From the NCBI RefSeq assembly GCF_001280565.1, contig NZ_LGRO01000001.1, positions 2,914,001 through 2,978,000 of the forward strand: DNA of 64,000 bases. The letters are read 5' to 3'. The notes beneath the pieces are model-generated. The model worked only from the letters and a program-made list of their open reading frames with translations, ran no database searches and was not told where the DNA came from. Of the stretch, positions 2,859 through 60,355 are shown piece after piece. The DNA is from Sulfobacillus thermosulfidooxidans (GTDB lineage Bacteria; Bacillota; Sulfobacillia; Sulfobacillales; Sulfobacillaceae). Both the position numbers and the translations under genes were made by a program. Position 1 is the first letter of the stretch; each line of letters opens with the position of its first letter.

Positions 2859-4994
2859 TTAAAGAGTGATTTCAAGATCGACGTCTTCAATGATTGTGGA
2901 CGCTTCTTCACTGAGGGATTGTAAGGGGCTTAGTGATACAACCGTGTGCTTGAATTCCGGCATGCCGGATAAGCTTAAAGGGCCGAGAGGAATGAGATGA
3001 TTGACAGCCGTGTCCAACTCGTTATGCATACTGACAAATACCGTGTCTTGGCGTATGTCTTGCGTAATGTGGGCAGTCAATGTCAGACTTGTGCCATGGG
3101 AGTTCGTGACTCTCACGGGTGAACCGTCAGAAATCGCTAGTTGTTGAGCTGTTTTTGGATGTATGGATAGGGTGTTAGGGGGAATCTTTTTGAGAGCTGG
3201 CATGAATCGAGTTTGCGCGCCGCTATTATAGTGAGCGCCTAAACGGCCTGTAATCAGATGAAACGGATATTCAGAATTTGTCAGTTCCGTGGCGGGGCCA
3301 GGCACGAGTGTACTGAATCGTGCTTTCCCATCCGGAAATGCAAAAGCGGTTTCATAAAGACGCGGGGTTCCCAAAGGAGCATCCTTGGTTAATGGCCAAT
3401 GGGCAATTTGGCCAGCCATAATCCTTTCCCAAGATGTCCCGGAGTAATCTGAAGGGGCACCTTGTGTCGCTTTTTGCATTTCTTCGAAAATCTCTTGCGT
3501 CGTTTGGTAGGGAAAATATTCCGCACAGCCTAGTCGCTTGGCCAGTTCTTGAAATGCTTGCCAATCTTGCCATGAATTTAGTGGCTGGAGATGAGAAGAA
3601 AGGGGGAATACTGGAACAATCCGCGCTTCGACATTGGTAATCGTGCCTTCAGCAACGCCAAACCCTCCAGCAGGAACGACAACGTCTGCTTCTTGTGCGG
3701 TTTCGGTAAGAATGGGATCGATGACGACTAAAAACTCAAGATTTTTCATGGCTCGATGGACTTCAGAAGTATCGGGCGCCGATAGTAGCGGATTGGCTCC
3801 AACAACCATAAGAGCTTTAATGTCCCCTCGATTGATCGCAGGAAAAAATTCGCTGGCAGTGAAGCGTCCAGCAGGAGGGATTGATTGTGGATCAACGCCC
3901 CATACACGGGCAACGGCTTGTCTATGACTTGGATCGGTTATGGGGCGGGAACCTGGGAGTTGGTCAGATTTCTGGCCGAGTTCTCGTCCACCTTGTCCAT
4001 TCGCCTGTCCCGTTAACATGACCGCGCCCGTCCCGGGACGGCCAATTTGCCCTGTGACCAAAACAACATTCAAAAATGCTGATACCGCTTCGACTCCGTG
4101 CTGATACTGTTCCATTCCACGACCATGAAGCAACATCGATCGGGAAGATGCGGCAAAGACACGCGAAATGGTTTCAATGATTTTTGGGGAAATTCCGGTT
4201 AGTAAAGAGACCACATGGGGCGAATAATGCCGAGCTTGCTGGGCCATTTCTTCAAATCCTCGTGTGCGATTGGCGACGAAATCATGGTTGACTAAGTTTT
4301 GTTGAATGATGCTATGCATCATCGCCCACGCAAGAAATCCGTCGGTTCCGGGACGGATGGCCAGATGATAATCGGCTGATTTGGCTAATCGTGTGCGCCG
4401 TGGATCAATGACAATAATGGTTGCACCACGGGTTTTGGCGTGTTGAATCGCACGCATAGCCATAGGGTGAGCGTCACTGAGATTACTGCCCACGATCAAA
4501 AGAGTTTCTGTTTGACGAATATCTTCAAAAGTACCGGTGGGACGATCGAGGCCTAACATGGTAATGTAGGCTTTTGCTGCTGATGACATGCAAAATCTTC
4601 CATTATAATCGATTTCGCGAGTGCCCAGGGCCAAACGGGCAAATTTTCCTAAGAGGTAAGCTGTCTCATTGGTCAGGGCTCCACTACCGTAAACAGCTAT
4701 GCTGTCCGGTCCCCAATTTTTTTTGATAGATTGCAGACGTTCCGCTATGGCGTCGAGGGCCGTCGTCCAACTGGTCGGCGTAAGGGGATGTTTACGATGG
4801 GGACGAAGCAGTGGGGCCTCGATTCGCTGGGGATGGTTGAGAACCTCGAGGCTAGCCAATCCCTTTCGGCAAAGATGTCCTTCGCTAATAGGATCATGGG
4901 GATTACCCACAATGCGCTGTCCCTTGGGGCTTTGCTTAATGGTTACCCCGCATTGCAGGGCGCAAAACGGGCAGGGGGTATAAACGGTAGACAT
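2859..4994 (-). CDS. nasC: Assimilatory nitrate reductase, catalytic subunit
   Basis: A 711-residue cytoplasmic molybdopterin oxidoreductase that reduces nitrate to nitrite; the length is close to Bacillus NasC. The N-terminal [4Fe-4S] ligands are C8, C11, C15 and C42, followed by the conserved Lys44 in 'LCRKG'. The Mo ligand is probably C135 in 'NGRFCMSSAA', as in Nas/Nap enzymes rather than Nar, which uses Asp. The C-terminal molybdopterin-binding domain includes 'HLITGRLGAHYNSGAQTR'. There is no C-terminal 2Fe-2S extension, so a separate electron donor is needed. No Tat signal is present. It is first in the operon with the sirohaem enzyme and the transporter, and is divergent from the globin gene. 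Confidence 0.9.
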   Translation of the reverse strand: MSTVYTPCPFCALQCGVTIKQSPKGQRIVGNPHDPISEGHLCRKGLASLEVLNHPQRIEAPLLRPHRKHPLTPTSWTTALDAIAERLQSIKKNWGPDSIAVYGSGALTNETAYLLGKFARLALGTREIDYNGRFCMSSAAKAYITMLGLDRPTGTFEDIRQTETLLIVGSNLSDAHPMAMRAIQHAKTRGATIIVIDPRRTRLAKSADYHLAIRPGTDGFLAWAMMHSIIQQNLVNHDFVANRTRGFEEMAQQARHYSPHVVSLLTGISPKIIETISRVFAASSRSMLLHGRGMEQYQHGVEAVSAFLNVVLVTGQIGRPGTGAVMLTGQANGQGGRELGQKSDQLPGSRPITDPSHRQAVARVWGVDPQSIPPAGRFTASEFFPAINRGDIKALMVVGANPLLSAPDTSEVHRAMKNLEFLVVIDPILTETAQEADVVVPAGGFGVAEGTITNVEARIVPVFPLSSHLQPLNSWQDWQAFQELAKRLGCAEYFPYQTTQEIFEEMQKATQGAPSDYSGTSWERIMAGQIAHWPLTKDAPLGTPRLYETAFAFPDGKARFSTLVPGPATELTNSEYPFHLITGRLGAHYNSGAQTRFMPALKKIPPNTLSIHPKTAQQLAISDGSPVRVTNSHGTSLTLTAHITQDIRQDTVFVSMHNELDTAVNHLIPLGPLSLSGMPEFKHTVVSLSPLQSLSEEASTIIEDVDLEITL

Positions 4995-14214: not shown

Positions 14215-15247
14215 ATGGCGGGAACGGCCCGTTTTGCTTACAACTGGGCCTTGAATCAATGGCAGCAGCAGTCTGAGGCATGGAAGGCGGATTCCTCGTT
14301 GCCCAAGCCGTCGGACGTCGCTTTACGGCGTCAACTGAATGCGATTCAGCGCGAGCAGTTTCCTTGGATGCTAGATATCACCAAAAATGCGCCCCAGATG
14401 GCGATCATCCACTTGGGCCAAGCGTTTAAGAATTTCTTCGCCGGGACAGCCGCATATCCCGAAGCTGGGGTGGGTGTGAATGCATGAAACGTTGCGGTTC
14501 GTCGGGAAAGTCGTGGAGGGAACTATCTCACGCACCGCGGATCGCTGGTTTCTGAGTATCACCGTGGAGATTCCCGATCGGCACAGTGTCCGCCGCGAAA
14601 ACCAAGCGGTGGTCGGAGTGGATGTGGGTGCGTCCGCGTTGGCTACCCTCTCGACCGGAGAGAAGGTTGTGGGACCGAAAGCTTATGCCGCGACGTTGAA
14701 GAAACTCCGCCATGTATCTCAACACTTCAGTCGCCAGATGGAAGCCGCTAAAGTCCGCGCCGGACTGAAGCCCGGCGAACCCATTCCGAAAGGAATGCGC
14801 ATCCCCCGGTCGGAGACCATGCGGAAAACCCAACGGCGCATCGCTCGGCTCCATGCCCGGATTGCGAATATTCGGGCCAATACGTTGCATCAACTGACGA
14901 CCGATCTCGTCGAACGTTTCGATGTCATTGCCATCGAGGATCTGAACGTGGCCGGGATGCTCAAAAATCACCCGCTAGCCCGGTCCATTGCCTTTGGCGC
15001 ATTCCGACGCCAACTCGAATACAAAGCGGCCCAACGCGGCAAGATGGTGGTTGTGGTGAGCCGCTGGTATCCCAGCAGCAAAACGTGTTCGTCGTGTGGA
15101 TACAAACTGCCGAAAATGCCGCTCGCTATGCGGGAGTGGACGTGCCCAGAATGTCATACGCGCCACGACCGCGACGTGAACGCGGCGATCAATTTACGTC
15201 GAGTGGCCGAGAGTTCGGTGAGGGGCTCCTCACCCGTTCCGGCGTAA
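14215..15247 (+). pseudogene. tnpB: Decayed TnpB (IS200/IS605-type RNA-guided nuclease)
   Basis: Two frames together encode a degraded TnpB. The first part (14215-14487) holds 'AGTARFAYNWALNQW' but lacks the usual first 20-30 residues. The second part (14480-15247) holds the RuvC domain: Asp in 'VGVDVGASALATLS', Glu in 'VIAIEDLNVAGML', Asp in 'HDRDVNAAINL', plus the zinc ribbon 'CSSCG' and 'CPEC'. At the joint an internal deletion has removed the basic segment normally between them, and an in-frame TGA follows 'IPKLGWV' just before the second part. It is therefore inactive. GC content is higher than in the neighbouring genes, which suggests it was acquired. No TnpA is present. Confidence 0.88.
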
Positions 15248-20770: not shown

Positions 20771-20950
20771 CTTGAACCTCCCCGCCCTAAAGGACGGAGA
20801 TTCTGGGGGAACCCCCGTGGCTGCGTCGCGGGTCGTGAGACCCTCGGAGTGACCCTCCTGACTCGCCACCGCTTATCCCGCCAGCAATTTCCCGGGGCTC
20901 AGCCGGACTACGCCTTAACGCCCTTTTGAGAAGGACGGGACGGCGATACG
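20771..20950 (-). ncRNA. Predicted omega-RNA scaffold of the IS605-type element
   Basis: The right-end hairpin and the GC-rich sequence overlapping the last codons of tnpB correspond to the usual site of the guide RNA for TnpB. The guide would be the flanking target sequence downstream of TTCAA, that is, the GGDEF gene itself. This is inference from element architecture. Confidence 0.5.
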
Positions 20951-22097
20951 TGATCCGTTGGGGTACCAAGAACTCCCCGGGGCGAATCGCCCCATGCATC
21001 CCCTTGTTGAGGATGTTCACCGCCCCGACGCCGTCGCGGTGCGCCCGATAGCCACAGGCGCGACAACGGTAGGTGCGGCCCGCCACCTTGGTGAGATGGC
21101 CACAATGCGGACACGTTTGGGACGTGTACGCCTCACGGATTTTTACGAGCTGGATGCCATGTCGACGAAGCTTGTATTCCAAGTATTGTTCTAACCGCCC
21201 GAACTCCAGCGCCCCCACCTCTTGGTTGGTCCGCCGGGATCGACGGTGTCGTTGGTGGTGGTTGAGGGTCCCAAGATCCCCCACGTACAAGAGGGTGATG
21301 CCGTAAGCGAGACAAAACGCGACGATCTGATTGGCTGCATGATGCAAGGCGTTGCGGGCGACCCGTTCGGCTTTCTGGCTGGTGCGGTATTGGGCGCGGT
21401 TCAGACGCTGGCGTCGTCGTGACCCGGGTTGCGTGCGAGCCCGTTTCTTGCGGAGTTTGGCTTGGGCCTTGGCCCGACCCTGCTTCACGGACCGCAAGCC
21501 CCGCCCGGAAATCGCCAAGGCTTCTTGGCCATCCGTTACCATGCCCAAATGAATCACGCCGATATCCAGCCCTCCGGCTTTGCCAGACGCCATGGGCACG
21601 GGATCGGGAATCTCACGGGTGATGGTGATGTAGAGTTCCCCAAAGCCCAACTCGGCCTGGACCACCCGCCCGGGAGGCATCGCCTCCGGAAGATGCACCC
21701 GAATGGGTTCACGCCCCCGTCCGCGGGGTAAAAGCAGATGCGGGCCTTGCCTCTTAAGCGCTTGGCCCTTAAAGATGGGGTTAAAGTATCGGCGGAACCG
21801 CCAGGGATACCGGGCCTGCTGATCCCCGTTCTGCCGTTTGGTGCGCACGCCGTCAATCGTCGCGCAGAATTTCTCGATGAGGGCTTGGACGATTTGCGAG
21901 TGGAGCGGGAAGCGTTGCTTGAAATGCGCCTTGAGTTGGGATTCCGTCGGCCACGGCCAATGCCGCCGCCGACAGAAACGATGAATCTTGACCAAACGCG
22001 TCCACAAGTCCCCCGCGGCGCGGCGCGCTGCCGACGCTTTGTCCCATTCCGTGGGGGACAGAGCAACCCGATAGGTGAAGACCGTCGTCTCTTGCAC
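20787..22097 (-). CDS. tnpB: TnpB RNA-guided nuclease, variant active site
   Basis: A 436-residue TnpB, complete from a GTG start with an AAAGGGGGGG ribosome site. RuvC-I Asp is in 'GGLDIGVIHLG' and RuvC-III Asp in 'AHRDGVGAVNIL'. The zinc ribbon is 'CPHCG' and 'CRACG'. The RuvC-II position reads 'LLYVGDLGTL', with Gly where the catalytic Glu normally stands (compare 'VIAIEDL' in the other TnpB here). A conserved-looking Glu in 'VKIREAYTSQTC' may replace it, as reported for TnpB clades with relocated RuvC-II residues. The last 65 or so residues overlap the predicted omega-RNA and are low-complexity. It would cut DNA at guide-matched sites. Confidence 0.85.
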   Translation of the reverse strand: MQETTVFTYRVALSPTEWDKASAARRAAGDLWTRLVKIHRFCRRRHWPWPTESQLKAHFKQRFPLHSQIVQALIEKFCATIDGVRTKRQNGDQQARYPWRFRRYFNPIFKGQALKRQGPHLLLPRGRGREPIRVHLPEAMPPGRVVQAELGFGELYITITREIPDPVPMASGKAGGLDIGVIHLGMVTDGQEALAISGRGLRSVKQGRAKAQAKLRKKRARTQPGSRRRQRLNRAQYRTSQKAERVARNALHHAANQIVAFCLAYGITLLYVGDLGTLNHHQRHRRSRRTNQEVGALEFGRLEQYLEYKLRRHGIQLVKIREAYTSQTCPHCGHLTKVAGRTYRCRACGYRAHRDGVGAVNILNKGMHGAIRPGEFLVPQRITYRRPVLLKRALRRSPAEPREIAGGISGGESGGSLRGSHDPRRSHGGSPRISVL

Positions 22098-34808: not shown

Positions 34809-35487
34809 TAACCATATTTTTTGGGTTGTCTTAGGATTTGTATAAAATGTCTGAACCGTGTTCTGACCTCCTCATTTCACAAATGTTGTTTAATTACCTA
34901 ACATACGACAAATTAAGGCAAAAACCCTTTCATAAAGGGAAAAGTTTGTCAAAACTTTACATGATCTCTGTGGAAAGATTCAGCGCATTGCATGTCAAAG
35001 CCTCGAAGGATGAAGTGATGTGTTGAATGTTCACGATGACCTATAAATCTTTTGGATTTTGGTGAACGACAAATGCACTGACGCAATCATCACCGACACA
35101 AGACTGTGTTGCAGTGTGATAATCCTTCATAAAAAGGGCATTGATGATTTGTGCTTTTCCCAAACACCATAAAGAAATTGTGATGTTGTGAATAACCGTT
35201 GATAGCGAAACGGTGCTGAACATAATCGACACGGTGATTGGAATGAAGGAAACATAATTGTCATTCATCTACTTCATTCGTTAAGCCATATTCGGACTTT
35301 ATTACTGGTTTACCGAATCGAAATGTGTTCAAACCAAGCTATCCTAGTTCCTTTGGAGGAACGGCTGAGGACCAATCGGACACGCGAAGCCGCCCCAGGT
35401 GCCCGTATTTCTTGCTCTCGCGAAATCTTACGCTAATAATATCCGGATTTGCCTATCAAGGCAGATCCCAATGTAAGGAGGGAGAAT
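34809..35487. other. Long intergenic region before cydA
   Basis: About 680 bp without a convincing gene; short frames on both strands lack ribosome sites and resemble nothing known. The region presumably holds the cyd promoter. A structured stretch at 35347-35392 is listed separately. Confidence 0.4.
35347..35392 (+). promoter_or_regulatory. Possible structured leader RNA of cydAB
   Basis: GTTCC-TTTGGA-GGAAC (35347-35362) is followed directly by a second possible stem, CGGCT (35362-35366) with AGCCG (35388-35392). The GC-rich, hairpin-prone block stands out in an AT-rich leader and ends about 95 nt before the cydA start. It matches no riboswitch that I can name. Confidence 0.3.
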
Positions 35488-36891
35488 ATGGATCAGTTGG
35501 GTTTGGCCCGTCTCCAATTTGGGGTCACCACAGTGTATCATTTCTTGTTTGTTCCCATTACCATTGGATTGGCTTTTCTTATCGCGATAATGGAAACGAT
35601 TTATGTCCGAACGGGCAAAGAAGAATATCGACCGCTCATTCAATTTTGGGGTCGGCTATTTTTGATTAACTTTGCTGTAGGGGTTGTAACAGGTTTATTG
35701 CAGGAGTTTCAATTTGGTATGGACTGGGCTAATTATTCCCGGTTTGTGGGAGATATCTTTGGAGCACCTTTGGCTGTCGAAGCATTGTTAGCCTTTTTTA
35801 TGGAATCGACATTCATCGGTGTATGGAATTTCGGATGGGATCGACTGTCGAAAAAAGTGCATTTGCTTGCCATTTGGTTGGTCGCTATCGGCACGATGAC
35901 TTCCGGTTTTTGGATTTTAACGGCGAATTCGTTTATGCAAGAGCCCGTTGGATATCAAATGGTCCATGGAACGGCGCAAATGGTGAGTTTTGGAGCGCTA
36001 TTGACCAATCCTCAGTTATGGGTGGAATTTCCACACACGATTTTGGCGTCGTATTTAACCGCATCGTTCTTTGTTTTGGCGATTAGTTCCTATCAATTAC
36101 TGCGCCATCACTATCCCGATTTATTCAAATTTTCATTTCGACTGGCATCAATTGTGGGATTAATTTCAGCCGTGTTGGTTATTGTTGTGGGGGATTTGCA
36201 AGCAACACACCTTGAAACGTCGCAGCCTATGAAGTTGGCCGCAGCAGAAGCGCTGTGGAATACCACATCGCAGCACGCTCCGTGGAGTGTCTTTGCGATT
36301 GTGGATGCAAAGGCGCAAAAGGATTATGCACAAATTCAAATTCCTGATATGTTGTCTATTTTGGCCTATAAACGTTTAAGTGGTGCCGTGGAAGGCATTC
36401 ATCAAGTGCAAGCCCAATACGTGAAAAAATATGGTCCGGGCAATTATGTGCCGCCTGTAGCTCCTGTTTATTACACGTTCCGTCTGATGATTTTCGCGGG
36501 AACAGCGATGTTAGCGTTAGCGGCCTATGCAGTGTATTTGTTGAAGAAGTCCCGATTTGCTGAAAAACGGTGGTTTCTTCGGGTTTTGGAATGGAGTCTG
36601 GTTCTGCCTTACTTAGCCAATTCTGCGGGATGGATTATGACAGAAGTTGGGCGTCAGCCGTGGGTCGTATATGGTTTACTCAGTACTGCCCATGGGGTAT
36701 CTTCACCCCAAAGTGTTTCAGCAACCGATATTGCATTGTCTCTTAGTGCGTTTGCATTGGTCTACGGATCTATGGCGATCGCCGCGATTTACCTATTTCG
36801 CAAGTACACGTTCATGGGTTTAGATCCCACAACGAATCAACCAGAATCGGTCACGGATAAAGACATTTTACTGGCGGGATCAAAATCATGA
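35488..36891 (+). CDS. cydA: Cytochrome bd quinol oxidase subunit I
   Basis: A 467-residue membrane subunit that carries haems b558, b595 and d and reduces O2 to water at high affinity. 'RLQFGVTTVYHFLFVPITIG' near the N-terminus holds the haem-ligand His (H18). 'GWIMTEVGRQPWVVYG' is the CydA hallmark. The Q-loop is short, as in Gram-positive and cyanide-insensitive forms. The ATG at 35488 is chosen because AAGGAGGGAGAAT stands directly before it; the longer frame has no ribosome site. cydB follows after 40 nt. Confidence 0.95.
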   Translation: MDQLGLARLQFGVTTVYHFLFVPITIGLAFLIAIMETIYVRTGKEEYRPLIQFWGRLFLINFAVGVVTGLLQEFQFGMDWANYSRFVGDIFGAPLAVEALLAFFMESTFIGVWNFGWDRLSKKVHLLAIWLVAIGTMTSGFWILTANSFMQEPVGYQMVHGTAQMVSFGALLTNPQLWVEFPHTILASYLTASFFVLAISSYQLLRHHYPDLFKFSFRLASIVGLISAVLVIVVGDLQATHLETSQPMKLAAAEALWNTTSQHAPWSVFAIVDAKAQKDYAQIQIPDMLSILAYKRLSGAVEGIHQVQAQYVKKYGPGNYVPPVAPVYYTFRLMIFAGTAMLALAAYAVYLLKKSRFAEKRWFLRVLEWSLVLPYLANSAGWIMTEVGRQPWVVYGLLSTAHGVSSPQSVSATDIALSLSAFALVYGSMAIAAIYLFRKYTFMGLDPTTNQPESVTDKDILLAGSKS

Positions 36892-36931
36892 CAGGTAGTA
36901 CTGGTACAAGGGGTACAAGGAGGGATTAGCG

Positions 36932-37933
36932 ATGCTCAATGTATTTTGGTTTATTTTAATCGCGGTGCTGTTCGTCGGTTATTTTATTCTCGAGGGATTT
37001 GACTACGGCGTGGGGATGATATATCCCCTAGTCAGTCGAAACGATCATGAACGACGCATGGCCATTAACACCATTGGACCTTTATGGTCTGGCAATGAAG
37101 TGTGGTTGATTACCGCGGGTGGAGCACTATTTGCGGCATTTCCTTTTTGGTATGCCACGCTCTTTAGTGGATTTTATCTGGCCCTGGTATTGATGCTAGT
37201 GGGTTTGATCTTTCGCGGTGTGGCTATTGAATATCGTAGTAAAATGGCCACCGAAAGTTGGCATCGAATCTGGGACATCTTATTAAGGACAGGCAGCTTT
37301 TTGCCGGCGTTGCTCTGGGGAGTCGCGTTCGCCAACTTGCTTCAAGGAGTTCCCATTAATGCCCAGATGAACGATGTCGGTGGCTTTTGGAGTTTACTTA
37401 CGCCTTATACCATATTAGGGGGTGTGCTAAGCCTTCTTCTCTTTCTGGCACAGGGAGCGTCTTTTTTAACGTTGAAGACGACTGGAGAATTGCGCGCTGC
37501 GTCATTACGTATGGCAAAAACCTTGTTAACATCAGTCTTGATTGTGGCTCTGGCGTTTGGGATATGGACGGCAAATTTACCGACGCTTGATCACCGGGCA
37601 ACTTACGACCTTTTGACGGGACTTGGATGGCTAAGTCTGTTTGCTGCACGGTGGATGATACAAAACCGCCAACAATGGGCATTTTTACTGCAATCTCTCA
37701 TGATTGCACTGAGTACTTCGGGATTTTTTGTTGGTTTGTTTCCGCATGTTATGATTTCAAGTGTTTCCTCTCACGACGACTTAACGATTTATAACGCGGC
37801 AGCTAATCCTTATACATTGCATGTCATGACCATCGTCGCATTGACCATGGTTCCCATCGTCCTCGCTTATCAAGTGTGGACATACTGGGTTTTTCGTAAA
37901 CGCATAACGCCACAAGAACATTTAGAATATTAA
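36932..37933 (+). CDS. cydB: Cytochrome bd quinol oxidase subunit II
   Basis: A 333-residue membrane subunit, partner of CydA. The N-terminal 'EGFDYGVGMIYPL' and 'NEVWLITAGGALFAAFP' are the family signatures, and eight to nine helices are predicted. ACAAGGAGGGA precedes the ATG at the proper distance. The pair would support respiration at low oxygen or when NO blocks other oxidases. No cydCD assembly transporter follows in this window. Confidence 0.95.
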   Translation: MLNVFWFILIAVLFVGYFILEGFDYGVGMIYPLVSRNDHERRMAINTIGPLWSGNEVWLITAGGALFAAFPFWYATLFSGFYLALVLMLVGLIFRGVAIEYRSKMATESWHRIWDILLRTGSFLPALLWGVAFANLLQGVPINAQMNDVGGFWSLLTPYTILGGVLSLLLFLAQGASFLTLKTTGELRAASLRMAKTLLTSVLIVALAFGIWTANLPTLDHRATYDLLTGLGWLSLFAARWMIQNRQQWAFLLQSLMIALSTSGFFVGLFPHVMISSVSSHDDLTIYNAAANPYTLHVMTIVALTMVPIVLAYQVWTYWVFRKRITPQEHLEY

Positions 37934-54352: not shown

Positions 54353-54404
54353 CTCAAATAATGGGCTCTTAGGCTGTTATGGGAGACTAAGGAAGGTGAT
54401 AGAA

Positions 54405-56363
54405 ATGGCAACTGTTTCACGGCAAATATTGACGAGACTGACCACGCCTTTGATTCGTGTAAACGGACATCTTGAACCCACAACATGGGAAGAGGCTTTG
54501 AATGTGGCAGCGAAAGGATTCCAACAGATTAAATCGCAATATGGATCAAAAGGTCTGGGGGTGTTTAGTTGTTCGAAATCTACGAATGAATTAAACTACT
54601 TAGCCTCAAAATTTTCTCGTGTGGTCTTTGGTACGAATAATGTAGACTCGTGTAACCGCACGTGACATGCTCCCTCCGTCGCGGGTCTCGCGACAGTCTT
54701 TGGCAGTGGTGCGGGAACGAATTCGTATGATGAATTTCATCATACCGATTTTATTATGTTGGTGGGGTCAAATGCGGCGGAAGCTCATCCGATTATTTTT
54801 CACCATATTATGAAAGGGGTTCATAATGGTGCGACATTGGTCGTGGTCGATCCCAGACGGACCTTAACGGCTCAAAAAGCCCATACGCATTTGGCTATTG
54901 CGATTGGATCCGATATTGCCTTGCTCAATGCGATGGCCCATGTCATTATCCGCGATGGTTTATGGGATCAAGATTTTGTCAAACGGGCGACCACAGGATT
55001 TGAGGAATTCGCTGCTAGCGTGGCTTCATGGACCCCAGAGAGGGCCTCACTCATTACCGGTATTGCTGCTGACGAGATTGAACGTGTTGCTAAAGACTAT
55101 GCTAAAGCTCATCGCGCAATGATCGGTTGGACTTTAGGAATTACCGAACATCATAATGCCGTAGATAATGTGTTTGCTTTGATCAATCTGGCTTTGCTGA
55201 CAGGCCATGTGGGGCGAGAAGGATGCGGTTTGAATCCCTTGCGCGGGCAAAATAATGTCCAGGGCGGCGGAGATATGGGCGCCTTACCGGACCGTTTACC
55301 CGGATTTCAAGACATTCGTCAAGATGCTGTGCGCGCACGGTTTGAAAGCGCCTGGGGAGTAAAAATTTCTGGCACTCCGGGATTTAATCAAACGCAGATG
55401 TTTGAAGCGATGGAACAAGGAGAACTGAAAGGGCTCTACGTTATTGGCGAGAATCCTGTCGATTCGGATGCCAATGGCCATCATGTCCGTCAGTTACTGC
55501 AGCAGTTAGACATGCTGGTGGTTCAGGACATCTTTTTAACGGCGACAGCACAAATGGCGGATGTGGTGCTGCCAGCCAAGGCCTCATTTGCCGAAAGCGA
55601 TGGCACTTATACGAATAGTGAACGGCGGGTGCAGCGCGTGCGTGCCGCACGAAAGGCACCTGGTGATGCTCAAGATGATCTATGGATTGTGACCCATTTA
55701 GCTAATGCTATGGGCTATTCCTGGGCCGAGATGACCGCTGAGCAAGTGTTCGATGAGATGCGTCAACTGGCCCCGAATTTTCATGGTATGACCTATGCGC
55801 GCCTCACCAAGGAGAAAGGAATTCAGTGGCCCTGTCCCGACGAAAATCATCCTGGGACCCGCACATTACACACCCGTTTATGGGAAGAGAACGTCGGAAA
55901 TCCGGCGCCATTTACTCCCGTAGACTGGCAACCTCCTGTGGAACTCCCCACGGAGGATTACCCCTTTTTACTGACCACAGGCAGGCGTCTAGGATTCTTC
56001 AATACTGGCGTGCAATCAGAAATTTACCCCCATCCCCACCGTGGAGAATGGATGGAAATTCATCCAGATGATGCGAACCGACTTGGGTTAACCGATAACG
56101 AGATGGTGCGCGTGACATCCAGACGAGGACAAGTTCACGTGCCTATTCAGATTAGCGAGACGGTACAGCCCGGAACGGTCTTTATGACATTTCATTTTCC
56201 CGATATTGTCGACACCAATCAGTTAACCATTGATGCGACCGATCCGGTTTCCGGTACCGCGGAATTTAAAGCCTGTGCGGTGCGCGTCGAACCCGTGGAT
56301 AGGGTTGAAGAGTCGGGTCATCAGATCCATGCCGTGGTGCCTGCACAAATTCAGGATAGATAA
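54405..56363 (+). CDS. fdhA: Selenocysteine-containing formate dehydrogenase, catalytic subunit (split type)
   Basis: Read through TGA 54663-54665 as Sec87, this is one gene of 652 residues. 'NNVDSCNRT', then Sec, then 'HAPSVAGLATVF' aligns with the E. coli FdhF region around Sec140 ('VDCCARV', Sec, 'HGPSVAGL'). Two separate frames would leave a 30-codon Sec-flanking gap that is open and family-like. Downstream are 'GSNAAEAHPIIFHHIMKG', 'LNPLRGQNNVQGGGDMG' and the C-terminal MGD domain. The usual N-terminal [4Fe-4S] domain is missing; the protein starts at 'RLTTPLIRVNGHLEPTTWEE', just after it. ATG at 54405 follows AAGGAAGGTGAT. It oxidises formate to CO2 with the NuoE/F-like subunits that follow. 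Confidence 0.9.
54663..54694 (+). promoter_or_regulatory. Selenocysteine TGA codon and SECIS hairpin
   Basis: The in-frame TGA (54663-54665) is followed after 12 nt by GTCGCG-GGTCT-CGCGAC (54678-54694), a perfect 6-bp stem with pentaloop GGTCT. The apical GGUCU loop, about 18 nt from the UGA, matches the SelB-binding bacterial SECIS element of fdhF. Confidence 0.88.
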
Positions 56364-56380
56364 AATCGAGGTGGCAGGTT

Positions 56381-56830
56381 ATGAGAGACCAAGAATTATC
56401 TGTGGCAATCAAGATTGAGCAGCTTTTGGAGTCTATCCCCAAAACACGTGACCAGCTATTACCGGCTTTATGGCGCGTTTATGAGCATTTTCATTATTTA
56501 AATCCTGACATCATTGGCGAACTATCTCGCCAGATGTCAATTCCCTATGCAGAAGTCTATGGGGTTGCATCCTTTTATGCACTGTTTTCCTGGGAGCAGC
56601 CGGCTCGTGTACCGGTACAAATATGTCACGATGTGATTTGTCAGTTATATGGGGCAGATGCCTTAAGCCAAAAGGTGGCGGAAGGGGTAGACCCGCACAC
56701 TGTTAAGGTCACATCCACCTTGTGCTTAGGGCAGTGTGATCATGCGCCTGCAGCTTTGGTGGGCGATCATGTGATGACAAAAGCCACTGTGGAAAAAATT
56801 CAGTCTCAACTGAAAGGAGGGCAAGCATGA
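56381..56830 (+). CDS. NuoE-like [2Fe-2S] subunit of NAD-linked formate dehydrogenase
   Basis: A 149-residue thioredoxin-like ferredoxin, equivalent to NuoE or FdsG. The four cluster ligands are in 'QICHDVICQLYG' (two Cys) and 'STLCLGQCDHAPA' (two Cys). The N-terminal helices carry 'YAEVYGVASFYALF', a family hallmark. It lies 17 nt after the catalytic gene, and its TGA overlaps the next ATG (ATGA). It passes electrons between the NuoF-like subunit and the rest of the complex. Confidence 0.93.
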   Translation: MRDQELSVAIKIEQLLESIPKTRDQLLPALWRVYEHFHYLNPDIIGELSRQMSIPYAEVYGVASFYALFSWEQPARVPVQICHDVICQLYGADALSQKVAEGVDPHTVKVTSTLCLGQCDHAPAALVGDHVMTKATVEKIQSQLKGGQA

Positions 56831-58050
56831 TCTCGGTACGTAGGTTACTGCCGGATAATCCTAAGACGCCCCCTGTCAGTATTGAACGCCTGAGAGAGCG
56901 TGGATTTGATAAGGCTTATGAGCGCATATTGAAAGCCGATGTCGACCAAGTCATTGCCGAACTAGAAGCCAGTGGAATTACGGGAAGAGGAGGAGCTGCA
57001 TTTCCGACCGGCCGCAAGTGGCGCAGTGTGAAAGAGGCACCGGGTTCAATCAAATATGCCATCATGAATGCAGATGAAAGTGAATTAGGAACATTTAAAG
57101 ATCGGGTGCTGATTGAACAAGACCCTCTGGGACCGTTGGTGGGACTCATTTTGGCGGCTAAAACCGTCGGAGCCACTCACGCTTATTGCTATATTCGGGG
57201 CGAATATCGCCAAGAGGAAAAACTGTTAACGGAGGCCGTCGACCTGTTGCAAAAACATGGATGGGTCGGGCCAGAGAGCGGCGTGGATATTGAGATTCGA
57301 CGCGGTGCTGGAGCCTATGTAGCGGGAGAAGAAACCGCCCTTTTTAACAGCATTGAGGGAAAACGGCCAGAACCGCGCGTGAAACCACCATTTCCTACGG
57401 TGCATGGTGTCTTTGGCGCTCCCACGCTGATTCAAAATGTTGAGACGTTGGCGAATGTTGCTTTGTTGTTGGGTCATGATGTGAACTGGTTTCGTGAAGT
57501 AGGGACCCAACAAAATCCCGGAACCAAGTTGGTTGCTTTAAGTGGGCATATCAAACATCCTGGCGTTTATGAAGTGCCATTTGGTACGGCCTTGTCTGAT
57601 ATTTTATTGGCGTCAGAACTCGGTGGTGGTGTAGGTGGAAGCGAAAAGTTGGGAGCTGTGTTGATTGGGGGAGCTGCTGGAACATTTTTGACTCCGGATG
57701 AAATTGCGGAAGCGACTTTGGATTATCCTTCGTTGGCCCGTTACGGAGCAAGTATTGGCTCTGGGGCCATGATGGTCTTTGATGACACCGTCGATCTCCT
57801 TGGCGTGGTTGAACGATTGGCACGTTTTTTTGCCGACGAATCCTGCGGACAATGTGTGCCATGCCGGATTGGCACACAGCGCATCAAAGAGTTCGTTCGT
57901 CATCCGCAAATTTTCGAGGAGGCGCAAAATATCCGTTCATTAGGCATGGCCATGCGGGATGCCTCGATTTGCGGATTAGGGCAGACGGCTCCTATAGCAT
58001 TACTATCGCTACTGGACCGACCCCAATTAATTCATGCCGAGACCCTGTAA
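56827..58050 (+). CDS. NuoF-like NADH-binding subunit of formate dehydrogenase
   Basis: A 407-residue flavoprotein equivalent to NuoF or FdsB. The NAD loop is 'GRGGAAFPTGRKW' and the FMN loop 'GAGAYVAGEETALFNSIEG'. The N3-type [4Fe-4S] ligands are in 'ESCGQCVPCRIGTQ' plus 'ASICGLGQTAP'. It receives electrons from formate and reduces NAD+. It overlaps the NuoE-like gene by 4 nt. It lacks the additional N-terminal [2Fe-2S] domain found in some HoxF/FdsB forms. Confidence 0.95.
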   Translation: MISVRRLLPDNPKTPPVSIERLRERGFDKAYERILKADVDQVIAELEASGITGRGGAAFPTGRKWRSVKEAPGSIKYAIMNADESELGTFKDRVLIEQDPLGPLVGLILAAKTVGATHAYCYIRGEYRQEEKLLTEAVDLLQKHGWVGPESGVDIEIRRGAGAYVAGEETALFNSIEGKRPEPRVKPPFPTVHGVFGAPTLIQNVETLANVALLLGHDVNWFREVGTQQNPGTKLVALSGHIKHPGVYEVPFGTALSDILLASELGGGVGGSEKLGAVLIGGAAGTFLTPDEIAEATLDYPSLARYGASIGSGAMMVFDDTVDLLGVVERLARFFADESCGQCVPCRIGTQRIKEFVRHPQIFEEAQNIRSLGMAMRDASICGLGQTAPIALLSLLDRPQLIHAETL

Positions 58051-58079
58051 TTCAGACGGGGAAGGAGGAATCAACGTTT

Positions 58080-58913
58080 ATGGCAAACACCGTTTCGATT
58101 GTGATTGATGGACAACCTGTAGAAGTTTTAGCCGGCACGACCATCCGTGCGGCCTGTGAACAGGTTGGCATATCCATTCCGACTTTGTGCTGGCATCCTA
58201 ATCTCACGCCCGCCAATGCTTGCCGCGCCTGTGTGGTGGAAGTAGAGGGTTCACGGGCGCTTGTGGCGTCCTGTTCACGACCTGTCGAAGATCAGATGAA
58301 GATTCATACCGATACCGAACGGGTCAAAAATGCTCGCAAAACCGTTGCTGAATTATTAGCATCGGCGGTGGATATTGGGTTGGCTCCGGATGTACAAAAT
58401 TTGATTGTTCAAACACAAGCTGATATCCACCGCTTCTACGATGCCCAACAAGAACATGTCGGTCTCAAAGATGACAATGATTTGTATATCCGCGACCTCG
58501 ATAAATGTATTTTATGCTACCGCTGCGTTAACACCTGTGGAAGTGACGCCCAAAACACATTTGCCATTGCTGTCGCAGGTCGAGGTCTCGATGCCCATAT
58601 CGATCCGGGTACGGACCGACTGCTTACGGATTCTGATTGTGTCTTTTGTGGAAATTGTGTAGCGGTTTGTCCTACGGGTGCCCTGATGGGCAAGAAGGAA
58701 TGGCAACTGCGCCAAGAGGGACAATGGGATGAAGCTCAAATCCATGTGACCGAAACGATTTGTACGTACTGTGGGGTCGGATGTGATTTGGAGTTACATG
58801 TTTTAGGTAATGATATCGTCAAAGTGACATCACCATTTGATCATCCCGTGACCCACGGCATGTTGTGTGTTAAAGGACGCTACGGGTATGATTTTGTGCA
58901 GCAGGAAGACTGA
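58080..58913 (+). CDS. Fe-S subunit with the displaced [4Fe-4S]/MGD domain of formate dehydrogenase
   Basis: A 277-residue protein that equals the N-terminal part of FdsA/NuoG-type alpha subunits. Order: [2Fe-2S] ferredoxin ('LCWHPNLTPANACRACVVEV', with a last Cys in 'VASCSRPV'), two [4Fe-4S] sites ('CILCYRCVNTC' and 'CVFCGNCVAVCPTGA'), and a C-terminal 'CTYCGVGC' then 27 residues then 'CVKGRYGYDF'. The last is the cluster domain normally fused ahead of the molybdopterin domain, and the protein stops right there. It should dock on the catalytic subunit 54405-56363 and complete its cofactor site. Strong GAAGGAGG ribosome site. Confidence 0.92.
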   Translation: MANTVSIVIDGQPVEVLAGTTIRAACEQVGISIPTLCWHPNLTPANACRACVVEVEGSRALVASCSRPVEDQMKIHTDTERVKNARKTVAELLASAVDIGLAPDVQNLIVQTQADIHRFYDAQQEHVGLKDDNDLYIRDLDKCILCYRCVNTCGSDAQNTFAIAVAGRGLDAHIDPGTDRLLTDSDCVFCGNCVAVCPTGALMGKKEWQLRQEGQWDEAQIHVTETICTYCGVGCDLELHVLGNDIVKVTSPFDHPVTHGMLCVKGRYGYDFVQQED

Positions 58914-58940: not shown

Positions 58941-58980
58941 GCTTGATGCTGCAATGTGTTGTGGCATCAAGCTTTGTGAT
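58941..58980 (+). terminator. Terminator of the formate dehydrogenase operon
   Basis: GCTTGATGC (58941-58949) pairs with GCATCAAGC (58964-58972), followed by TTTGTGATTT, 28 nt after the last stop. Confidence 0.65.
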
Positions 58981-59107: not shown

Positions 59108-60355
59108 ATGCCCGTGTTATATCGGGTTCATTTAGTGGATAATCCCCGAGAATTGGTGAATATTCGGTGGAATGATGACGGGCAGATCACCCAGATTGAG
59201 CCTTACCATGAAAAGCCTGAAAATGTGCCCTCGATATGGGCTTCAGATATCAAAGGCGAGGGAATATGGGATGGAGAAGAAGGGCTCGTACTTCCTGGGC
59301 TGGTGGATGCTCACACGCATTTGGATAAGGCGAAAACTTATCAAGCTTCTATGACGTCAGATGGCACGGTACAAGCGGCCATTCGCGAATTTAGGCAAGT
59401 GCCTCCCCAAACACCAGACGGTGTTTATGAGCGCGTGATGTCCATTCTTAAACAAATGGTGTCCTATGGAACCACCCTCGTCAGAACCCATATTGATTCC
59501 TATTATCCGGATTTGGTTCGGCTCAGTGGAATATTCAGTGCGATGATGGCCGCCAAAGAGGCCATGAAAGACAAAATTGAGGTACAATTCGTCTTAATGT
59601 GCCCCGGTGAAATCGATGCGACCTGGTCAAAACATTTATGTGAGATGCGGGGTAATTTGTCGGCGTTAGGGGGAGCTCCTTGGCTGTCTCCCGATCCGGT
59701 GAAGAATATCCAGTGGATTTTAGACCAAGCGACCCGGTTAGGCTTAGGAGTGGATTTGCATATTGATGAAACATTGGATCCTGAGGTCAAGACGTTAGAA
59801 TGGCTAACCGATGAGGTCTTGCGGCGATCATTTTCCGGATCTGTCGTGGCGAGCCATGTTCTGGCCATAGGAACCCAAGATCAGGCCATACAACGCCGCA
59901 TTGCCCGTGCTGTGGGCGAAGCGGAAATTCACATTGTGAGTTTGCCCCAAACCAATTGCTATCTCCAAGGGCGCGAGTCACCATATTTAACCTGGCGAGG
60001 CATAACGCCCATGAGGGTGTGGAAAGACATGGGGGTCAATGTGGCTTTGGCTTCTGATAATATGCAAGATCTGTTTCATCCCTGGGGTAATGGGGATCTG
60101 TTACAGGTTGCTTCTTTGGCTCTTTATGCGGCGCAATTACAGCCGAGAGATGAAATCGATGTGTTACGGGCTATTTCTTATATTCCCCGCCTGTGGTTAA
60201 AGGGTGATGAAAATCCTCTTGTACCCTCTCGCCTAGCCGATTTGCTGGTTTTGCCTGTCTCTTCAGCTCATCAAGTGTTCTCAGACATGCCAGCAGCACG
60301 GGCTGTGTTTAAACAAGGACGCTTGATTAGCCGCCGCAGGGTCATTGTTGATTAA
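59108..60355 (+). CDS. Cytosine-deaminase-like amidohydrolase
   Basis: A 415-residue metal-dependent hydrolase of the CodA/N-isopropylammelide branch. Metal ligands are in 'DAHTHLDKA', 'DLHIDETLD', 'ASHVLA' and 'ASDNMQDLF'. The substrate-side pattern 'TNCYLQGRESPYLTWRGITP' then 'HPWGNGDLLQV' follows the CodA layout. It probably deaminates or hydrolyses an N-heterocycle. The convergent ABC transporter of the Liv/Urt type could supply the substrate, but they are on opposite strands. An ACAAGGAGAAAT ribosome site precedes the ATG. Confidence 0.8.
   Translation: MPVLYRVHLVDNPRELVNIRWNDDGQITQIEPYHEKPENVPSIWASDIKGEGIWDGEEGLVLPGLVDAHTHLDKAKTYQASMTSDGTVQAAIREFRQVPPQTPDGVYERVMSILKQMVSYGTTLVRTHIDSYYPDLVRLSGIFSAMMAAKEAMKDKIEVQFVLMCPGEIDATWSKHLCEMRGNLSALGGAPWLSPDPVKNIQWILDQATRLGLGVDLHIDETLDPEVKTLEWLTDEVLRRSFSGSVVASHVLAIGTQDQAIQRRIARAVGEAEIHIVSLPQTNCYLQGRESPYLTWRGITPMRVWKDMGVNVALASDNMQDLFHPWGNGDLLQVASLALYAAQLQPRDEIDVLRAISYIPRLWLKGDENPLVPSRLADLLVLPVSSAHQVFSDMPAARAVFKQGRLISRRRVIVD

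Follow-up and report, generated by a model that had tools for sequence, protein, structure and literature searches.

A putative NAD-linked selenocysteine formate dehydrogenase of Sulfobacillus thermosulfidooxidans with an alpha subunit predicted to be encoded as two proteins

Which enzyme is encoded where a catalytic gene with an in-frame UGA precedes three complex I-like genes, and how are its domains shared out among the chains? Such a four-gene unit lies at positions 54405-58913 of a stretch of 64,000 nucleotides from S. thermosulfidooxidans (hereafter the window; G000:C1:2914001-2978000, host genome 3.83 Mb), where genes for a catalytic chain (cat) and for NuoE-like, NuoF-like and NuoG-N-like proteins (E, F and G) follow one another in one direction. 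Putative cytoplasmic selenocysteine (Sec) formate dehydrogenases (FDHs) beside NuoEFG-like genes, which may couple formate oxidation to NADH, have been described in all Sulfobacillus genomes (Justice et al., 2014; PMC4378227, in excerpt). The enzyme family and the proposed NADH coupling are the same here. The excerpted text mentions neither a split subunit nor a permuted gene order, and the conserved, permuted and split architecture is what the present analysis adds to the published proposal.

The four genes and their predicted activity

The first-pass annotation of this DNA had placed NuoE-, NuoF- and NuoG-N-like parts beside a Sec catalytic gene, which domain scans bear out, cat lying directly upstream of 56381-58913. 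Its reading as an NAD-linked Sec FDH is still the best one on sequence grounds and, as stated above, was already in print; it had overlooked that the alpha subunit is split and that the Fe4S4 domain resides on the NuoG-like chain. The features of the locus are as follows.

54405-56363, plus strand: catalytic chain cat, 652 codons, with Mo/W-bis-MGD domains PF00384 and PF01568 and Sec at codon 87
54663-54665, plus strand: in-frame UGA, with strong support for reading as Sec, in the context NNVDSCNRT-U-HAPS
54678-54694, plus strand: SECIS-like hairpin, 6-bp stem (54678-54683 with 54689-54694), loop GGUCU, 12 nt past the UGA
56381-56830, plus strand: E subunit, NuoE/FdsG-like [2Fe-2S] thioredoxin fold (PF01257, E 2e-28)
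56827-58050, plus strand: F subunit, NuoF/FdsB-like, with FMN and NAD(H) site and [4Fe-4S] motif (PF01512, PF10589)
58080-58913, plus strand: G subunit, NuoG-N-like, 277 aa, with a [2Fe-2S] site, two ferredoxin-type [4Fe-4S] sites and then an Fe4S4 domain (Fer2_4 and ferredoxin domains)
58743-58901, plus strand: relocated Molybdop_Fe4S4 domain, G residues 222-274 (PF04879, E 3e-19), with predicted ligands of the Mo-proximal cluster
58941-58972, plus strand: terminator-like hairpin of 14 pairs, directly 3' of G (hairpin scan)

The ATG of cat at 54405 is preceded by AGGAAGG (54390-54396); the mechanical list of open reading frames has GTG 54396 as the start and is interrupted at the UGA. The genes are closely packed, with 17 bases from the end of cat to the ATG of E, 4 bases shared by E and F, and 29 bases between F and G, for which ATG 58080, after a GGAAGGAGGA site, was taken as the start instead of the mechanical 57852. 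The hairpin at 58941-58972 is a plausible end of the operon, for which the seven terminator-like hairpins found against 5.6 expected are weak evidence. No Rfam family was matched anywhere in the window, and a sigma-70 promoter scan gave fewer sites than in shuffled sequences. Downstream of the operon lies a gene for a cytosine deaminase-kind amidohydrolase (59108-60355), which adjoins the FDH in only one (L057) of the 34 further loci fetched from the order.

The four genes very probably encode a soluble NAD+-linked FDH of the FdsABG kind, presumably cytoplasmic, whose alpha subunit is made as two proteins. In this enzyme the C-terminal domain of G would join cat in trans to form one FdsA-like unit, formate would be oxidised at the metal (Mo or W) bound by Se in cat, and electrons would pass through the Fe4S4 cluster of G (A1), A2, A3 and the [2Fe-2S] cluster (A5) to the cluster of F, FMN and finally NAD+, E and F making up a complex I-type diaphorase. 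The same domains and the predicted chain A1-A2-A3-A5-B6-FMN are found in FdsABG(D) of Rhodobacter capsulatus (PDB 6tg9; PMC7171172, in excerpt), which likewise has a NuoE plus NuoF type of diaphorase; in the S. thermosulfidooxidans operon, chains of the FdsB and FdsG types are encoded beside cat. The alpha subunit of Fds is listed with Cys as the metal ligand (PMC10100899, in excerpt), in contrast to Sec here. An FdhD-type gene, for which the first-pass annotation had suggested looking nearby, does occur in the genome, on a different contig (G000:C2:385397) from the operon.

Instead of NAD+, the same split complex might reduce NADP+ or ferredoxin, or it might act mainly as a CO2 reductase; the best phmmer matches of F are bifurcating hydrogenases, in which NuoF-like folds are likewise found, and the sequence does not distinguish NAD from NADP use. 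However, the operon has neither an extra ferredoxin-type chain nor a second flavin module, its four-gene make-up parallels FdsG-B-A, and alignment of F with complex I, hydrogenase and FDH beta chains shows that the motifs taken as those for FMN and NADH, and the cluster motifs, are kept. These alternatives are thus considered unlikely.

Cytochrome bd (35449-37933) and a nitrate-assimilation-like gene (2859-4994), which had been brought in as context for formate use, lie about 17 kb and about 50 kb from it, separated by many unrelated genes, and are therefore uninformative on the operon. Formate use in aerobic, acid surroundings and detoxification, both raised in the first-pass annotation, are candidate roles. 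The window also holds two open reading frames (14480-15247 and 20787-22097) with zinc-ribbon ends which, judged by eye, we take to be TnpB-like transposon genes.

Division of the alpha subunit and its spread among bacteria

Domain scans, tiling of a known alpha subunit and comparison with unsplit relatives all indicate that an FdsA-type chain has been cut at a domain boundary and its halves placed at opposite ends of the operon, cat-E-F-G as against E-F-(G+cat). First, PF00384 and PF01568 are matched in cat, where the scan did not find PF04879; the latter is matched in G instead. Profile TIGR01591 is divided in the same way, positions 1-52 being covered by G and 52-672 by cat, and cat by itself scores 715.7 bits, above the curated cut-off of 666.25, although the N-terminal Fe4S4 domain is not in the same chain. 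Second, R. capsulatus FdsA (6tg9_A) is tiled by the two chains, 24-304 by G and 308-932 by cat. Third, in all 18 unsplit relatives the G and cat matches abut in one frame, nearly always with residue 277 of G meeting residue 14 of cat, and they abut likewise in five further unsplit chains from Acidobacteriota. A structural model of cat (mean pLDDT 73.9) aligns to FdsA from 304 on and to E. coli FDH-H over 55-701 (Z 39.4, rmsd 3.5, 603 aligned), that is, as a full-length FDH fold starting just past the Fe4S4 domain; the AlphaFold2 model of G was of low quality (pLDDT 57). No description of a split alpha subunit was found in the open-access literature searched, and the excerpted texts of PMC10100899, PMC5736913, PMC5029168 and PMC13397495 do not mention the form.

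A total of 120 split loci were gathered: the window, 34 at the level of the order, 80 from a species scan and 5 from a phylum draw, three pairs among them being duplicate retrievals of a single sequence. All 106 loci in which the four genes were found keep them in the order cat-E-F-G on one strand, so that the arrangement is more than chance; the remaining 14 lack one or more parts, in most cases at a contig end. The species scan, with an alignment of G as query, covered 84,980 species by one genome each; it gave at least 591 relatives, of which the best 80 were kept, a choice made by similarity to split G proteins in which the split form is over-represented. By record title, these best 80 of at least 591 come from Bacillota, Actinomycetota, Acidobacteriota, Chloroflexota, Dormiibacterota, Eremiobacterota, Gemmatimonadota, Rokuibacteriota, Planctomycetota and a Myxococcales bin, several of the phyla being represented by one metagenome bin only. 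The idea of a layout private to this genus was accordingly discarded. The earlier remark that Sec enzymes with such modules are known in anaerobes also proves too narrow, relatives with the same layout occurring in Streptomyces, Acidobacteria, Chloroflexi and others.

Two draws from phyla complement the scan. The draw from Acidobacteriota (the phylum of G437, genome of L116), which is an unbiased sample as opposed to the scan selected by similarity to split G, was searched with cat and gave matches in 64 of 149 genomes. Nine matches had at least 56% identity, with frames of 644-743 aa containing one TGA, and are of split length; three of them (L219, L220 and L222) were fetched and checked. The next-best match, at 50% identity, is fused, and none falls between 50% and 56%. 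Among 398 genomes of the home phylum, eight have split-class G matches at E < 1e-119. Matches of G at E around 1e-80 were not accepted as split, since the fetched loci revealed their frames of about 355 aa to belong to ordinary fused Sec chains that the UGA interrupts (273 + ~77 residues).

Three loci raise the possibility that the diaphorase is not bound to a single catalytic chain. At L058 (G021:C46), cat is accompanied by a broken E and by neither F nor G, and the genome has a second, complete operon (L064); L139 and L152 carry split-type E-F-G with no cat within at least 3.2 kb upstream. Hence G might also serve another complex, and cat might use the E-F-G of a paralogous operon. These are only three of the 120 loci, however, two of them (L139 and L152) in metagenome bins, and with its broken E, L058 may simply be decaying, which makes sharing improbable as a general explanation. 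L058 is the closest same-genus relative after L057, and either decay or sharing of E-F-G could account for it.

A division produced by annotation or assembly, with cat really starting upstream and carrying its own Fe4S4 domain, is conceivable in so far as Sec genes are often mis-called near the UGA, but it is highly improbable. In addition to the missing PF04879 match in cat, stops close the reading frame upstream of 54405, the same kind of boundary recurs in the 34 order-level loci, and G stops 0-26 aa past its matched domain in all 80 further loci (the best 80 of at least 591 relatives). A mis-called start of cat was rejected on the grounds of the closed frame and the recurring boundary.

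Reading of the UGA

In table 11 UGA is a stop codon, and TGA closes other genes of the window; taken as a true stop, the codon at 54663-54665 would make the catalytic gene a pseudogene or two open reading frames. Conservation, the RNA element and the Sec machinery speak together against this, so that a stop or pseudogene was rejected as scarcely credible and decoding of the codon as Sec is strongly supported by sequence comparison. Some match to cat is present in 39 of the 42 genomes of the order, and copies of at least 55% identity number 36, in 31 genomes; all 36 have the in-frame TGA with coding conserved on both sides, and SCNRT-U-HAPS is read in every one of the 34 loci fetched from among them.

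The six-pair SECIS stem forms in all 35 of these sequences (the window and the 34 order-level loci). For a wider set, the motif was present in 105 of the 120 split loci, from which 66 distinct Sec and 32 distinct Cys sequences were obtained. All six pairs are found in 65 of the 66 Sec sequences and in none of the Cys ones, and the loop GGTCT in 63 and 3, respectively. The Cys forms are a less suitable control than synonymous recoding because their protein differs (HAPSVAGLSAA/HAPSVAGLSAV) and a Ser codon breaks one pair; when the same peptides were recoded synonymously, the full stem arose in 2575 and the loop in 1009 of 13200 resamplings. A single-sequence fold of the SECIS region of cat was not exceptional (z -1.07). 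A 9-pair hairpin also occurs within cat at 54725-54745, about 60 bases past the UGA.

E. coli formate dehydrogenase H (FdhF) resembles cat in having Sec at the same site, the same fold and, in its SECIS element, a GGUCU-containing loop (AGGUCU) 11-12 nt past the UGA; its stem is presumably as drawn for this comparison. Unlike cat, FdhF carries an N-terminal Fe4S4 domain itself and is not known to have partners of the NuoEFG type.

The genome contains selA (E 2e-167 to the selA equivalog), selB (361 bits against a cut-off of 242), selD (E 2e-108) and a tRNA-Sec gene scoring 64.5 bits with RF01852 (gathering score 47), which stays a candidate because a second locus, at 49.9 bits, is also above the gathering score; these genes are scattered. 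The selD gene (G000:C1:2149778-2150713) itself carries an in-frame TGA and probably encodes a selenoprotein. Among 12 genomes with split FDH, selA was found in 9 of the 10 with the Sec form; it was not found in the Streptomyces but is present in the Streptosporangium (L151), which has the Cys form despite it.

Origin and relatives of the split form

Split and unsplit forms fall on either side of one branch with an SH-aLRT value of 100 in each of two trees, both of which were quick ones with SH-aLRT as their support measure. Tree 1 contained 104 split and 18 unsplit rows after 16 split loci with cat absent or short were dropped. Tree 2 contained 82 and 20 rows; long branches (L091, L094 and L096), duplicates (L154/L110/L115), most of the Cys Actinomycetes (22 of 34) and E. 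coli FdhF, which was fetched only in part, were left out and Acidobacteriota were added. A single origin of the split is not contradicted, since the two forms separate on one branch in both trees, and the split layout probably arose once. In both trees the Cys forms, from Streptomyces and Streptosporangiaceae, are one clade nested in the Sec forms; this nested Sec-to-Cys change could be used for comparing Sec and Cys enzymes.

The A4 cluster motif (His-X3-Cys-X2-Cys-X5-Cys) is present in 17 of 18 unsplit chains and in none of 118 split G chains. Its loss as a mark of the split branch is weakened by the five further unsplit chains from Acidobacteriota, only one of which has the motif, lost or altered in the other four. 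In R. capsulatus FdsA, A4 lies off the direct electron chain at the dimer interface (PMC7171172, in excerpt). Split G could therefore still pass electrons without A4, but the loss speaks against a dimer contact of the FdsA type. Two unsplit Sec FDH chains from the Acidobacteriota draw (L217 and L221) lack the A4 ligands and have the unusual motif HQCAAT-U-HAPT.

FdsA is a single chain, described as a fusion with an iron-sulfur module (PMC10100899, in excerpt), in contrast to the two chains here, and the R. capsulatus operon is ordered fdsGBACD (PMC7171172, in excerpt), that is, E, F and alpha, of which cat-E-F-G is a circular permutation. The nearest relatives of cat found, with up to 50% identity and many with Sec, are unsplit FdhA proteins with NuoE/NuoF-like partners from Clostridia-type Bacillota and Acidobacteriota (L191-L205, L215-L218 and L221). 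Their G and catalytic parts are in one frame and their gene order varies (E-F-Gcat, Gcat-E-F or F-Gcat-E); E-F-(G+cat) is the order in all three Acidobacteriota unsplit loci where every part was found (L217, L218 and L221). The permutation from E-F-(G+cat) could have come about, for example, if the cluster was duplicated in tandem and its outer parts were lost, a new gene start arising at the domain boundary. As a tentative and rather doubtful extension, an ancient permutation of single origin may have founded a phylum-spanning FDH branch with a two-protein active-site unit, in which Sec at about codon 87 of the first gene, as against some 350 codons into a fused chain, would let translation abort early when selenium is short, with E-F-G remaining whole as a diaphorase open to sharing by several catalytic chains.

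If the chains do assemble in trans, this would be a naturally split metal-dependent FDH whose catalytic half could be exchanged, mutated or expressed apart from the half that bears the clusters, something difficult to do with FdsA. The layout also marks a separate branch of predicted NAD-linked FDHs, in soil and acid-environment bacteria among others, and annotation domain by domain would show these enzymes as separate proteins. Another MopB enzyme made as two polypeptides is formylmethanofuran dehydrogenase FwdB/FwdD, in which the separate part is the C-terminal molybdopterin dinucleotide-binding domain and not the N-terminal Fe4S4 domain.

The genome also encodes a second, unsplit FDH-like protein of about 1000 aa (G000:C2:102043-103914; L091, similarly L094 and L096), with NNVD..YCQ in place of [U/C]H and followed by a 163-aa protein; our guess is that it is perhaps of the B. 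subtilis YjgC/ForC type rather than of the FdsA type.
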